Source: Bacteroidales bacterium UBA4363 (GTDB taxonomy: Bacteria; Bacteroidota; Bacteroidia; Bacteroidales; Paludibacteraceae). From it: a stretch of 11,464 nt of DNA. The position numbers and the translations under genes were made by a program. The notes beneath the pieces were generated by a model. It was not told the origin of the DNA and ran no database searches. It saw only the letters and a program-made list of their open reading frames with translations. Every line of letters begins with the position of its first letter. The stretch's first letter is position 1. The DNA lies in the NCBI GenBank assembly GCA_002393965.1, contig DGSL01000029.1, positions 1 through 11,464 on the forward strand, given 5' to 3'. This document shows positions 3,430-11,424 of this stretch, in pieces.

Positions 3430-4050
3430 ATGAATTACATGAGACACTTACTTATTGTACTGCTGCTGGCAACAGCGATTGTCAGGGCTGAAGCATGGAC
3501 CATCGGTGGCGAGATTGGATTTGAGCACAACGACACACATGACATGCCTGCTGTTGGAAACATCACGAACGGCCGTTACGACACATTCACGTTCAATCCG
3601 TGGATAGAATATGACTTAAGCGACGCATGGACTGTCGGAACCTATGTAGAGATGGGTTGGCATAAAGACAAGAGCACCGGACCATCGGAGAGACAGGTTT
3701 CCATTGGTCTTGCACCCTATCTGCACTACACTGTCCTTGAATTCGGGAAATTCAGTCTCGGCTTCGAAGGTTGTCTGAGGGGAGTCCTGTCAGATGCCTT
3801 CGGCAACGGCAGTGACCGATTTGACTCCTTCGTTGTAGGGTTCACCGTCAAACCGGACCTATCGTATGCCCTGACAGACCACTGGAATCTGGACATGGAC
3901 CTGAACTTTGCTGCCTTGAGCGTCCTATATGCCAAAGACGGCATCGCAGGAGCCAAAGACAGCCGCACGTTCCATGCCGGGATGGACCTCGACAGCGATA
4001 ACGTCCTGAACGTCGGAGACTTGTCGGTCGGCGTTTCGTACTCCTTCTGA
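3430..4050 (+). CDS. Small outer-membrane beta-barrel protein
   Basis: This is a 206-aa secreted protein with an N-terminal signal peptide (about 1-22: MNYMRHLLIVLLLATAIVRA, then EA). The mature part alternates polar and aromatic/hydrophobic residues in strand-like stretches, for example FNPWIEYDLSDAWTVGTYVE and LSYALTDHWNLDMDLNFAAL. It ends in VGVSYSF, a terminal aromatic residue typical of outer-membrane barrels recognised by BamA. Size and pattern fit an eight- to ten-strand barrel of the OmpW/OMP_b-brl kind, but no transported substrate can be named. ATG codons at 3430 and 3439 are both possible starts; I keep the first because it lies a normal distance from the promoter at 3397-3404. The gene is alone on its strand, divergent from the AraC-type regulator, and ends before a strong hairpin at 4114-4161. 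Confidence 0.8.
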   Translation: MNYMRHLLIVLLLATAIVRAEAWTIGGEIGFEHNDTHDMPAVGNITNGRYDTFTFNPWIEYDLSDAWTVGTYVEMGWHKDKSTGPSERQVSIGLAPYLHYTVLEFGKFSLGFEGCLRGVLSDAFGNGSDRFDSFVVGFTVKPDLSYALTDHWNLDMDLNFAALSVLYAKDGIAGAKDSRTFHAGMDLDSDNVLNVGDLSVGVSYSF

Positions 4051-4113
4051 AAAGAGTCGGGGATGCGTCTGAAAGAGGATAACAGGAAGGCTAAAACGAC
4101 ATAGCAGGGCTTG

Positions 4114-4161
4114 ATAAAGAGAAGCAGGGGTTGACCATGGTCAGTCCCTGCTTCTCTTTAT
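4114..4161. terminator. Bidirectional hairpin between convergent genes
   Basis: A self-complementary stretch centred between 4137 and 4138 gives 24 bp of stem (4114-4137 with 4138-4161) with two G.T pairs and no formal loop; the core is TGACCATGGTCA. It sits between the barrel gene and the convergent ddl. The tails are only moderately T-rich (CTCTTTAT on either strand), so it is a likely two-way terminator rather than a textbook one. Confidence 0.65.
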
Positions 4162-4177
4162 TCCTGTCGTACTTCGA

Positions 4178-5155
4178 TTATCGAGACATAGACTCCTCGA
4201 TGATATCCGTCATTACATCCTTGATATCGAGTCCAGCCGCCCTGATTTGCTGCGGGATGAACGATGTAGCGGTCATGCCAGGGGTCGTATTGACCTCCAG
4301 GAGATTAATCCTATCCCCTTCGGTAATGATATAATCCACCCGGATGATGCCGCGTGCACCCAACAGATCGTAGATCCTTGAAGTTGTTGCCTGTACGCGT
4401 CCAGTCAGTTCGGGAGACAGGCGTGCGGGCGTTATCTCACTCACCTGTCCCTTATACTTGGCATCGTAATCAAAGAACTCATTTTGGCTGACGACCTCGG
4501 TCACAGGAAAAACGACAGACTTTTCGCGTGTCTTATAGACTCCGCACGTCACTTCCGTCCCCTTCATAAAGCTCTCGAGAATCACCTGGTCTCCTTCGCG
4601 GAATGCCTTCGAGACCGCCTCCCGCACCTCGTTTTCGTTCTTCACCTTTGTCACGCCGAAACTAGAACCTCCCACGTTCGGTTTCACGAAAATCGGCAGT
4701 CCGAGTTGTTGAACTGCCTCGTCTGCCTCGATGGTCTCGCCTTTTCGCAAGAGGATGTCGGGTGCGATGTTCAGTCCGAACCCTTGCAGATAGTGGTTAC
4801 ACGTGAATTTATTATACGTCATGGCGGCAGCCAGTACGTCGCAACACGTATAAGGCATTCCGATCATCTCGAAATACCCTTGCAGTCGTCCGTCTTCGCC
4901 CGGTATGCCATGAATGGTCACATAGGCACAGTCGAACGTCTGTTTCTTTCCGTCTCTTGTGTAACTGAAATCGTTGCGGTCAATCGGGTAGGACGTACCG
5001 TCCACTTCCGCTCTCCAGTTGAGTCCTTCCAGGACCACCACTGTCAGGTCATACTTCTCGTTATCAATGAAAGTCAGCAAACCTGCCGCACTACGCAGCG
5101 ACACTTCGAATTCCGACTGGTCACCCCCGGCCACGATCGCTATTTTCTTCTTCAT
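4178..5155 (-). CDS. ddl: D-alanine--D-alanine ligase
   Basis: This 325-aa cytoplasmic ATP-grasp enzyme joins two D-alanines using ATP to make the dipeptide end of the peptidoglycan precursor. Residues matching the E. coli DdlB active site are present: E15 in GGDQSEFEVS, S164/S165 in GGSSFGV, K233-Y234 in FFDYDAKY, R272 and D274 in IRVDY, and E287/N289 in LLEVNTTPGMT. The Tyr at 234, where D-lactate-making relatives carry Phe, supports D-Ala-D-Ala rather than depsipeptide synthesis. Length is normal for the family. The start ATG gives the expected N-terminus MKKKIAIVAGG. It lies 56 nt downstream of the AsmA-like gene on the same strand, with no terminator or TAnnTTTG box between them, so the two are probably one operon. 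Confidence 0.95.
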   Translation of the reverse strand: MKKKIAIVAGGDQSEFEVSLRSAAGLLTFIDNEKYDLTVVVLEGLNWRAEVDGTSYPIDRNDFSYTRDGKKQTFDCAYVTIHGIPGEDGRLQGYFEMIGMPYTCCDVLAAAMTYNKFTCNHYLQGFGLNIAPDILLRKGETIEADEAVQQLGLPIFVKPNVGGSSFGVTKVKNENEVREAVSKAFREGDQVILESFMKGTEVTCGVYKTREKSVVFPVTEVVSQNEFFDYDAKYKGQVSEITPARLSPELTGRVQATTSRIYDLLGARGIIRVDYIITEGDRINLLEVNTTPGMTATSFIPQQIRAAGLDIKDVMTDIIEESMSR

Positions 5156-9351: not shown

Positions 9352-9438
9352 TTTAGGGCCATGTTCCGCAAATCAACTTTTCATTTTACGTAGCATGATG
9401 CATATTCGCACTGTTGAAAAACATATTATTGGATAATA

Positions 9439-9465
9439 TTGAATAAAACAAAATAGTTATATTTG
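9439..9465 (+). promoter_or_regulatory. Promoter of the candidate structured RNA
   Basis: TATATTTG at 9458-9465 is an exact TAnnTTTG -7 box. TTG at 9439-9441 lies about 19 nt upstream, near the -33 position. The predicted start (about 9468-9472) coincides with the 5' edge of a 12-bp stem. Confidence 0.65.
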
Positions 9466-9467
9466 GT

Positions 9468-9752
9468 GCGTTGCTCTCAGCAGAAGCTCAACTAACGGGA
9501 GAGTGGACAGTGGGAGCAACGCGACATATTAGTTTAGCGTTTACTTGACGCTTTGTGTCTTTAGCACTTGGAAATTCGCAACTTCATTGAGAACTAAAGA
9601 ACAAAGCAACGGTAGATGCTCATGTGGTGATTTTATACTCTCAGGGAGGGTGTATCTTCATAGTGCGTGGGCTTCTGCGTTGCTCGTTCAGTTCTCAGGG
9701 CAATGCGAAGCCTCCAAGTGCGGGACGAGCAATCGAACCCGCGCTTTTTTTG
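9468..9752 (+). ncRNA. Candidate structured RNA or regulatory leader, about 285 nt
   Basis: This stretch has no credible protein but has its own promoter and an intrinsic terminator. Stems seen: GCGTTGCTCTCA (9468-9479) with TGGGAGCAACGC (9511-9522), 12 bp with one G.T; GCTTTGT (9550-9556) plus TCTTTAG (9558-9564) with CTAAAGA (9594-9600) plus ACAAAGC (9601-9607), 14 bp with one bulged G; GGCTTC (9670-9675) plus GCGTTGC (9677-9683) with GCAATGC (9700-9706) plus GAAGCC (9707-9712), 13 bp with one bulge and one G.T; and the terminator stem at 9716-9746. TGCGTTGCTC occurs at both 9467-9476 and 9676-9685, so GAGCAACGC (9514-9522) can pair with either. I do not recognise the family: no RNase P, tmRNA or SRP hallmarks are seen. 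6S-like or Bacteroidales-1-like RNA remains possible. It could be a free RNA or a leader of the gene at 9836. Confidence 0.6.
9716..9751 (+). terminator. Intrinsic terminator
   Basis: AAGTGCGGG (9716-9724) pairs with CCCGCGCTT (9738-9746), 9 bp with one T.G. An inner CGA-GCAA-TCG mini-stem (9726-9735) lies in the loop. Seven T follow from 9745. It ends the candidate RNA, or acts as an attenuator before the gene at 9836. Confidence 0.75.
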
Positions 9753-9769
9753 CCCATAAGTGAACATGG

Positions 9770-9829
9770 TTTATTTAATTGGCGTAGGGTGAGAGGAAAA
9801 GAGAATTTATGTTTAACCAATTAAATAAA
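9770..9829 (+). repeat. Perfect 13-bp inverted repeat in the leader of the BspA-like gene
   Basis: TTTATTTAATTGG (9770-9782) is the exact reverse complement of CCAATTAAATAAA (9817-9829), with 34 nt between. The right arm ends seven bases before ATG 9836 and would cover the A-rich translation-initiation region if folded. It could be an mRNA hairpin or a protein-binding site. No TAnnTTTG promoter is visible between the terminator and the ATG. Confidence 0.6.
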
Positions 9830-9835
9830 AAAGCT

Positions 9836-11005
9836 ATGAAGCAAAAACTTTTATCAACAATGTGCGCGTTGTTTTGCACAATATGCGCATGGTCTGCAAG
9901 TGGATTCGAGGAAGACGGAATCCTGTATGAAATAGAAACGACATACAATAGCGCTACTCACAAATATGAACCAACAGGGGGCGTCATTGTTACAAGTTAC
10001 TATCACGACAATGACACATACACAGAAATAAGGAAAGAGTACACTGGAAACATAACAATACCTGCCACAGTAACACACGAAGGAACGACCTATCCTGTCA
10101 AAGGCATTGATTCATACTGGTGTGACCTCAGCAAGGTAAGTAACATAAATGTAAGTCCAGACAATAGTTACATCAAAAGCATTGATGGAGTCGTTTATAG
10201 CAAAGACGGCGACACCCTCATATGCTGTCTAAATAGAACAGAATTTTCTATACCAGAGGGAGTAAAGGTAATCGGAGAGTACTCTTTTGGCTATTGTAAT
10301 GACTTAACAACACTAATAATGCCAGCAAGTCTGGAATATGTCGGAACTTTTGGCGAATACGACAAATTAGGCACCAAGAATCTGAAATATATAACAATCA
10401 AAAGCACAACGCCTCCAGAAGCAGCATATGACGATATTGTATGCAACAAAAATGGTTATTTATACGTTCCAAAAGAATCATACTCTTTGTATGACGAGCA
10501 TTGGTATTGGGGCGGCTTCAAGCACATACAATGCATAGAAGACGGAGTTGCGGCAGCGCCTGGCGGCGTAACAATTGAAACTGGCACAGGCAGCGCTGTA
10601 TTCACATGGCCAAAGAGCGACAATGCTGTCGCATACGAACTGAAAGTCTTGAAAGACGGTGTGGAAGTATGCTCGCTGGAATTCAACGCTCAAGGGCAAG
10701 TGACCGGCATAGTGTTAAGATCCTTTGGCGAAAGCGAAGGCTTCAAGTTTAAGGTTAGAGGTCTGGAGGCAGACTCCGAGTATGACTTCAGATTAAAGGC
10801 AATAGGAGAAAACGACACAGAGATAACCTCATACACAGGAACATTCAGAACCTCCGGCATAGCCACAGCAGTGCCAGAAGCCGAGGAAAGCATCGTAGAG
10901 ACCGCGCGCTACGACATAAACGGAAGACCGCTGAACGCTCCGACTAAGGGCGTGAACATAGTGAAGTACAGCGACGGAAGCTTCGAGAAGGAGTTTGTGA
11001 AGTAA
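9836..11005 (+). CDS. Secreted BspA-like/FN3 surface protein with T9SS-like tail
   Basis: This 389-aa protein has a signal peptide (about 1-21, hydrophobic LLSTMCALFCTICAWSAS). An N-terminal part contains BspA-type leucine-rich-repeat-like segments: ITIPATVTHEGTTYPVKGI (73-91) and FSIPEGVKVIGEYSFGYC (137-154), followed by LTTLIMPASLEYVG. A fibronectin type III-like domain covers about 243-340 (FTWPKSDNAVAYELKV, then GLEADSEYDFRLKAIG). The C-terminus, ARYDINGRPLNAPTKGVNIV ending in EKEFVK, matches the short sorting tail common on Prevotella/Bacteroidetes secreted proteins. BspA-like proteins often bind host or bacterial surfaces; no ligand can be named here. ATG 9809 would extend the frame by nine residues, but it puts polar residues ahead of the signal peptide and runs across the inverted repeat, so ATG 9836 is preferred. 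The 5' part is AT-richer (about 40% GC at 9961-10020) than the 3' end (57% at 10861-10920). Confidence 0.87.
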   Translation: MKQKLLSTMCALFCTICAWSASGFEEDGILYEIETTYNSATHKYEPTGGVIVTSYYHDNDTYTEIRKEYTGNITIPATVTHEGTTYPVKGIDSYWCDLSKVSNINVSPDNSYIKSIDGVVYSKDGDTLICCLNRTEFSIPEGVKVIGEYSFGYCNDLTTLIMPASLEYVGTFGEYDKLGTKNLKYITIKSTTPPEAAYDDIVCNKNGYLYVPKESYSLYDEHWYWGGFKHIQCIEDGVAAAPGGVTIETGTGSAVFTWPKSDNAVAYELKVLKDGVEVCSLEFNAQGQVTGIVLRSFGESEGFKFKVRGLEADSEYDFRLKAIGENDTEITSYTGTFRTSGIATAVPEAEESIVETARYDINGRPLNAPTKGVNIVKYSDGSFEKEFVK

Positions 11006-11129: not shown

Positions 11130-11173
11130 TCAAAACGAAAAGTACACGTTTTCAAAATGAAAAGTACATTTTT
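11130..11173. repeat. Tandem 22-bp repeat with internal dyads
   Basis: Two adjacent 22-bp units (11130-11151 and 11152-11173) share 19 of 22 positions around the core GAAAAGTACA. The first contains the dyad AAAACG/CGTTTT (spacer 9), the second AAAATG/CATTTT (spacer 7). It looks like a pair of protein-binding sites or an element end; no owner is visible. Confidence 0.6.
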
Positions 11174-11349
11174 TATAAGAGAAGCGGACGACAGGCGTCG
11201 CCGTCGTTCTCCTCGATGCGCACGGCCAGAGCCAGCGTCTTCAGGTGTCGGTTGGATAGGTTGGACTTGCGTTTGTCTTGTTTCACAAGACATTTTGGGC
11301 GGTGCCTCGGGATAACAAATAAATTTATTTTCCTCTCGGTTTGCTCCAT
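11173..11349 (-). CDS. Possible small ORF or gene remnant, 58 aa
   Basis: An ATG-started frame of 58 codons begins inside the first 76-bp repeat copy and ends at TAA 11173-11175. Its first 25 residues are encoded by the repeat. The last 30 (starting SNLSNRHLKTLALAVRIEE) use GC-ending codons and look more gene-like than the repeat part. I recognise no family. It may be the tail of a decayed gene joined to a repeat, or chance. Confidence 0.15.
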   Translation of the reverse strand: MEQTERKINLFVIPRHRPKCLVKQDKRKSNLSNRHLKTLALAVRIEENDGDACRPLLL

Positions 11350-11424
11350 TGTCTTGCTTTACAAGACATTTTGGGCAGCGCCTCGGGAAAACAAATAAAT
11401 TTGTTCTCCTTTCGGCTTGCTCCA
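11275..11424. repeat. Two tandem copies of an AT-rich 76-bp-period repeat
   Basis: Copies at 11275-11348 and 11351-11424 match at 65 of 74 positions without gaps. Each starts with a small hairpin, GTCTTG/CAAGAC, whose stem is unchanged while the 5-nt loop differs. Each then runs through TTTTGGGC, CCTCGGGA and ACAAATAAATTT to end in TTGCTCCA. It resembles AT-rich interspersed intergenic repeats I recall from Prevotella/Bacteroides; that is memory, not a search result. If read on the - strand as peptide, six of nine differences change the amino acid, which argues against coding. Confidence 0.75.

Follow-up and report, generated by a model that had tools for sequence, protein, structure and literature searches.

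A predicted switching RNA leader of Bacteroidales, located between its own promoter and a BspA-like gene

Transcription-attenuating riboswitches and related leaders are built from a promoter, a structured leader in which an antiterminator and a terminator exclude each other, and a downstream gene. 6S RNA, which we take to be Rfam family RF00013, and 6S-flavo RNA are long, hairpin-like RNAs encoded by free genes. Weinberg 2010 (PMC2864571) gives 6S-flavo RNA as RF01685, marks the cis-regulation and switch status of Bacteroidales-1 RNA (RF01693) with '?', and includes the two motifs GUCCY-hairpin and Bacteroides-2 among predicted structured RNAs of Bacteroidetes, for which Fremin and Bhatt 2021 (PMC8040213) reports 3161 candidates. 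FopS and GibS, small RNAs of Bacteroides thetaiotaomicron, form a multicopy Bacteroides RNA family with its own promoters, in which FopS is ~65-70 nt long and trans-acting (PMC11697453, available in part). The present study describes an RNA leader in a window of 11,464 nucleotides (the whole stretch of DNA analysed, from Bacteroidales bacterium UBA4363; features of the leader lie on the forward strand). Positions 9458-9752 are one copy of a predicted switching RNA leader of Bacteroidales, located in the order promoter, RNA, gene, and comparative sequence evidence makes it highly probable that this leader is a cis-acting transcription attenuator with mutually exclusive stems upstream of a BspA-like gene, an RNA predicted to adopt either a fold that terminates transcription or an alternative one in which the terminator is lost.

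A covariance search for 6S, Bacteroidales-1 and other families, which an earlier note on this DNA had suggested, returned no match to the element: an Rfam cmscan with 4227 families found none in the window (E up to 5) and none at 20 loci that carry relatives (E up to 1), where five Rfam matches, one of them a tRNA, all lay elsewhere in the loci. Identification as 6S RNA, Bacteroidales-1 RNA or a T-box leader was rejected on the lack of a covariance match in the window and these 20 loci, and no tRNA or tmRNA was found in the window. The leader is, like Bacteroidales-1 RNA, a conserved RNA of the same order and, like 6S and 6S-flavo RNA, long and hairpin-like, but it shares a covariance match with none of them and, by its genomic placement, would occupy a leader position as opposed to a free gene. 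FopS and GibS, as far as the available part of their description goes, are similar in being a multicopy family with its own promoters; membership was rejected on size and mode, the leader being ~285 nt as predicted from promoter and terminator and, on present evidence, acting in cis. From transcription-attenuating riboswitches and leaders it differs in having no matching Rfam family, unrelated downstream genes, and up to 13 scored copies per genome. The literature searched held no description of the element, nor did the available portions of PMC7160235 and PMC7366714, and none of five Bacteroidales names looked for in PMC11109978 occurs there. The element could be identical to one of the 3161 candidates of Fremin and Bhatt 2021 or to GUCCY-hairpin or Bacteroides-2 of Weinberg 2010, which are likewise predicted structured RNAs of Bacteroidetes. 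The RNA apparently belongs to an unnamed class, in the sense that no family record was found and not that it has never been seen.

The Bacteroidetes -7 box has the consensus TAnnTTTG, to which the leader promoter holds an exact match, TATATTTG (9458-9465), and transcription would start at ~9468. Of 66 related loci, 57 have such a box ahead of the RNA, where base shuffles predict 3.6, and none has one between the terminator and the gene (3.0 expected); the corresponding figures in a second set are 46 of 68 and 2 of 44, and the window's own gap (9754-9836) contains no match to TAnnTTTG. Because the box precedes the RNA and is nearly absent from the gap, the gene seems to depend on read-through. 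At 119 loci with the exact core described below, which are among the matches listed for that core, the first ORF after the RNA shares its strand in 103 cases and opposes it in 4, with none called in 12. Among the 68 model-found copies of the second set, which includes a few poorly placed copies with low alignment scores, the counts are 56, 1 and 11, whereas upstream ORFs are of mixed orientation (60:44 at the exact-core loci, 43:19 in the second set). The median gap from terminator to downstream ORF is 80, 75 and 73 nt in three counts. The element is a 5' leader between a promoter and a same-strand gene.

These figures bear on a proposal that the earlier note had made beside the leader, namely a free RNA, 6S- or Bacteroidales-1-like. 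A trans-acting RNA of ~285 nt, either 6S-like or a regulatory sRNA, lying near genes by chance would explain why the element has its own promoter and terminator, and its terminated product could accumulate, but a strand bias of 103:4 and 56:1, the short gap, the near absence of a -7 box from that gap (0 of 66 and 2 of 44), and the missing Rfam 6S match are all at odds with it, and we consider it improbable. The attenuating leader is the reading followed below.

The RNA would begin with a 5' hairpin (9468-9522) of 12 bp (9468-9479/9511-9522), the sequence of which varies among copies. The two rival pairings proposed for 9514-9522 are both present in the window, where GAGCAACGC is complementary to 9468-9476 and to 9677-9685, but they do not extend to the class: among 88 leaders the 5' stem sequence GCGTTGCTC recurs as it does at 9677-9685 only in four (L001, L002, L036 and L064), close relatives of the window, and the others carry a 5' hairpin of different sequence. 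Within this hairpin the strand GCAGAAGCTC (9480-9489) can pair with core positions 9669-9678 and forms a candidate open-state helix, PX. An exact core complement of at least 9 nt occurs in 29 of the 88 leaders compared with 1 of 440 dinucleotide shuffles, which lends PX some support; it is not universal, since 59 of 88 leaders do not reach 9 nt. In a look for the conserved short ORF of a leader-peptide attenuator, made outside the 5' hairpin region, the ATG of GTAGATG was found replaced in several rows of alignment A4 (L003, L016, L025, L033, L076 and L087).

Positions 9468-9754 fold at -122.6 kcal/mol compared with -85.1 (sd 4.8) for 200 dinucleotide shuffles, none of which was as good (z -7.8). 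RNAalifold applied to the whole-leader alignment recovered the structure only in part because the variable arms misalign; half-alignments were used instead, together with swap tests in which arms were exchanged among 68 copies in 200 swaps and the mean uninterrupted helix was scored (native versus swapped values are given below). In the predicted closed state, P3 joins 9564-9572 to 9713-9721, of which 9720-9721 are common to the terminator stem (7.85 vs 3.84, sd 0.155, 68 copies), and P5 joins 9587-9595 to 9690-9698 in the window sequence (8.32 vs 4.45, sd 0.146). The long-range arms of P3 and P5 comprise 51-61 distinct sequences in the 68 copies, yet are paired within each copy; the two helices co-vary. 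Between them P4 pairs TTCGCA (9575-9580) with TGCGAA (9704-9709; 6.94 vs 6.30), the former also being the loop of a local hairpin, H4 (4.21 vs 3.73), and upstream of P3 stands a conserved hairpin, P2 (AGCGTTTACTTGACGCTTTG, 9536-9555; alignment A4; 5.75 vs 5.35). For P2, P4 and H4, as for helix A and the terminator (see below), the swap excess is small and exceeds all 200 swaps, which supports these helices less strongly than P3 and P5. P6 pairs AGCAACG (9605-9611), a 5' arm conserved in A4, with 9678-9684; its native and swapped values are equal (6.74 vs 6.74), as are those of the antiterminator in the first set (11.6 for both), because the search pattern fixed the core and thereby the partner strand. 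The apical domain (9619-9664) is very variable in sequence and length, and the distance from the GCAACGG anchor to the core is 56-119 nt in 98 copies.

The core GCGTGGGCTTCTGCGTTGCTCGTTC (9665-9689) is strongly conserved (alignment A3). Its last part, 9679-9689, is the 5' strand of an antiterminator (AT) of 11 bp, G-U pairs included, with a 3' strand at 9723-9733 that overlaps the 5' strand of the terminator. The claim that TTGCTCGT (9680-9687) is complementary to ACGAGCAA (9725-9732) in the terminator loop proved exact, and the pairing extends to these 11 bp and is conserved across relatives. In 67 distinct rows, GTTGCTCGTTC with GGGACGAGYAAC is paired in 98.4% of cells (slid controls 31-56%), and 5 pairs have changed on both sides, a number reached by 3 of 500 shuffles. 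Since this first set was mostly core-selected, the AT was retested on 52 copies with variant cores, where the native helix of 10.67 bp compares with 7.94 after swapping, a mean that none of 500 swaps attained. Its length in these copies ranges from 5 to 13 bp, five of the 52 having an uninterrupted AT of just 5-6 bp, and variant pairs include GTTGCTTATCC with GGGATAAGCAA in L235 and GTTGTCAGTTC with GAACTGGCAA in L214. An RNA that would act in trans by near-complementarity to the core was also searched for (18-nt core complement, up to 2 mismatches) and rejected, as all 11 matches in 4 genomes sit at leader copies; a backwards control gave 1 match.

The intrinsic terminator (9720-9751) consists of the stem GCGGG (9720-9724) / CCCGC (9738-9742) and seven T (9745-9751). 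It is conserved, with 89.4% of cells paired (slid controls 24-74%), and its co-variation is modest, in that the covariation score was not equalled by any of 500 shuffles and the count of 3 pairs changed on both sides was reached by 121 of 500. The AT and the terminator are mutually exclusive because the AT takes the GGRA that the terminator needs. A further open-state helix, A, pairs 9550-9564 with 9594-9607 (7 + 7 bp with a bulge at 9557; 8.63 vs 7.99, sd 0.18) and overlaps the ends of P3 and P5 and the start of P6, and from this geometry helix A and the complete P3-P4-P5 stack would be unable to coexist. Taken together, the alignments support two exclusive folds, closed and open, for a leader structure that is conserved and co-varies as those of riboswitches do. 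All elements that the earlier note had listed for 9458-9752, its -7 box, stems, competing pairings and terminator, are in place, and its view of an attenuator or riboswitch-like leader controlling the BspA-like gene gains strong support from gene strand, promoter placement and covariation; the stems are conserved in related loci with compensatory changes (P3, P5 and AT), the opposite of the decay that it had named as counting against it.

By nearest-neighbour energies, 66 of 68 copies have a closed state that differs from the free minimum by no more than 1 kcal/mol, and the open state (helix A plus AT) lies a median of 18.9 kcal/mol above the closed one, in a comparison that spans P2 to the AT 3' strand, with the 5' leader, hence PX, as well as pseudoknots, tertiary contacts and kinetics outside it. 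The whole leader of the window gives -122.6 kcal/mol unconstrained, -121.8 with the terminator forced, -114.0 with helix A plus terminator, and -109.2 with the AT. As the closed fold is the more stable, the modelled default is probably off, and the stability gap means that the on state would need a strong trigger or kinetic control through co-transcriptional trapping. We infer the following sequence of events. After initiation at ~9468, the RNA would by default take the closed state, a single long hairpin made up of P3 to P6 and the apical domain, which buries the AT 5' strand (9679-9689), so that the terminator forms and a ~285-nt transcript is released. A signal, which may be a ligand, a protein or an altered polymerase speed, would favour the open state: helix A would form early, the core would be freed and perhaps held by the 5' leader through PX, GTTGCTCGTTC would pair with GGGACGAGCAA, the terminator would lose its 5' strand, and the polymerase would continue into the BspA-like gene.

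The read-through part of the leader (9752-9835) is without a -7 box and in the window contains a 13-bp inverted repeat (9770-9782/9817-9829) in place of a motif, GGG(G/A)RTY, that 50 of 119 loci (counting distinct sequences; 9% expected by chance) carry in the gap as a GGGGARTC-like loop. The arms around this loop co-vary (stem 5.52 vs 4.61; 0 of 500 swaps as high), and such a second hairpin suggests that the read-through RNA is itself functional. The gene that would be controlled, at 9836-11005 on the forward strand, encodes a BspA-type leucine-rich-repeat protein (Pfam LRR_5, E 2.2e-06). Within the own genome a BspA-like gene appears to follow three of four copies (by Pfam for the window, by a reading of the repeats for the others), and the ORF after the remaining one reads as glycosyltransferase-like. 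Across 96 downstream proteins, the window's included, Pfam recognised 7 LRR_5, 5 DUF4988, 5 collagen-repeat, 5 Glug and 3 NusG proteins, 2 matches to GTP_EFTU, a single HSP70 and a single HaeIII-type restriction enzyme. By a crude rule the products of the downstream genes, mutually unrelated, often look exported (52 of 94 downstream proteins compared with 128 of 454 more distant ORFs). A link to defence genes was rejected, as just single members of the 96 match any PADLOC model. UpxY/NusG-like proteins are antitermination factors of capsule operons, and at three loci (L050, L087 and L118) the leader stands upstream of genes read as UpxY/NusG-like. On a contig listed as viral (L154, 390-2378), a leader copy precedes a gene that, from its translation, resembles an EF-Tu-type GTPase.

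With attenuation as the preferred reading, two proposals concern its trigger, and the likelihoods that we attach to them refer to the trigger only. An orphan riboswitch, a finer version of the attenuator reading in which a small metabolite or second messenger would be bound directly by the core and internal loops and the fold chosen thereby, would agree with the leader position, the exclusive terminator and antiterminator, and the strongly conserved core. Second-messenger riboswitches precede many unrelated genes, as this leader does. The proposal comes without a ligand or a common pathway, and core conservation may also stem from strands that have two partners each; it is a somewhat doubtful candidate. 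The fold may instead be set by an RNA-binding protein that binds the leader, making it a protein-dependent antiterminator or attenuator. We hold this only tentatively: the several short conserved motifs (TTTACTTGA, GGTAGATG and GGGCAATGCGA), the GGGGARTC-like loop of the gap, and a stability gap large enough to suit a protein point towards it, but no candidate protein was found, and NusG-type genes lie downstream of the leader in just 3 of 96 cases.

When 9400-9840 was used as a blastn query, the own genome proved to hold two more copies, one at 87% and one weaker, and 16 of 61 genomes, the own included, gave matches (E up to 0.01). No plasmid-borne relative was found by blastn with the window's copy. 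The exact core 21-mer GGGCTTCTGCGTTGCTCGTTC occurs in at least 118 stretches of the scan; 76 of the 80 titled ones read as Bacteroidales-type, three are titled as Clostridia-type bins and one as uncultured bacterium, one viral contig also matched, and among the matches listed are Bacteroides acidifaciens, Paraprevotella clara, P. xylaniphila, Prevotella denticola, Phocaeicola oris and Hallella mizrahii. R1, a covariance model built on the leader's 3' half, scored four copies in the own genome, of which the last is weak (37.7 bits); two further matches, weak and antisense, fall at copy sites. This weak copy (L158, ~1495-1680 on the minus strand of contig C4) is short and divergent, lies upstream of a BspA-like gene, and shows P3- and P5-like pairings by eye without a long apical domain, which suggests further subfamilies near the model threshold. 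In the window's family R1 matched 194 of 300 genomes and 22 of 33 genera (E up to 1e-4), with up to 13 copies per genome, a lower bound as 13 candidates were scored; it matched 37 of 247 genomes of the order (E up to 1e-3) and one of 296 in a phylum-wide draw, the window's own. Eight genomes chosen for holding a copy have 1 to 9 each, including 5 in B. acidifaciens DSM 15896, 9 in P. clara YIT 11840 and 9 in P. xylaniphila YIT 11841 (E up to 0.01).

Many copies per genome upstream of unrelated genes would also be expected of a small mobile or repeated DNA element with palindromes (MITE- or REP-like), and here the identities among copies are informative. They were compared, without a random baseline, for 6 of 9, 5 of 9, 5 of 5, 5 of 6 and 4 of 4 copies in five genomes. 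Paralogs within one genome are 54-78% identical, except for two pairs at 84 and 88%, whereas four of the six P. xylaniphila copies have a 93-97% identical counterpart among the five P. clara copies, and the 600 nt that follow are 75-93% identical; the best identity for the remaining two is 75-76%. When the five copies of B. acidifaciens are set against Bacteroides sp. GM023, one is matched well on both sides (91% and 90%), a second solely in the RNA (88% and 60%), and three are not. This pattern fits retention in place for part of the copies, with evident turnover, and not recent hopping. A conserved promoter, a conserved orientation and copy-specific compensated stems are likewise not expected of a MITE or REP, and we regard such an element as very improbable. 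If attenuation by this leader is right, 194 of the 300 genomes sampled from the window's family, about two thirds, share an RNA switch, often in several copies, and one signal could govern many unrelated surface and accessory genes. It is conceivable, at somewhat below even confidence, that the leader represents an order-wide class of RNA switch through which one shared cellular signal sets the transcription of accessory surface and envelope genes copy by copy; on the same footing, its copies, all of one leader type but each with private P3 and P5 stems, could make up a global RNA-level regulon.

Other features of the window lie outside the leader. A 24-nt inverted repeat (4114-4161), 92% complementary and with no spacer, is located between the convergent ORFs 3430-4050 (forward) and 4178-5155 (reverse) and looks like a two-way terminator; within the window, Rfam scores better than E 0.01 fall only on the near-perfect inverted repeat 4107-4168, as microRNA, and are spurious. 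Downstream of the BspA-like gene are two 22-nt tandem repeats (11130-11173) and two tandem 76-nt repeats that are 88% identical (11273-11424). At the beginning of the window, 3-533 and 548-2170 are type IX secretion-linked genes, with a type B sorting domain and a PorP/SprF protein with an OmpA domain.
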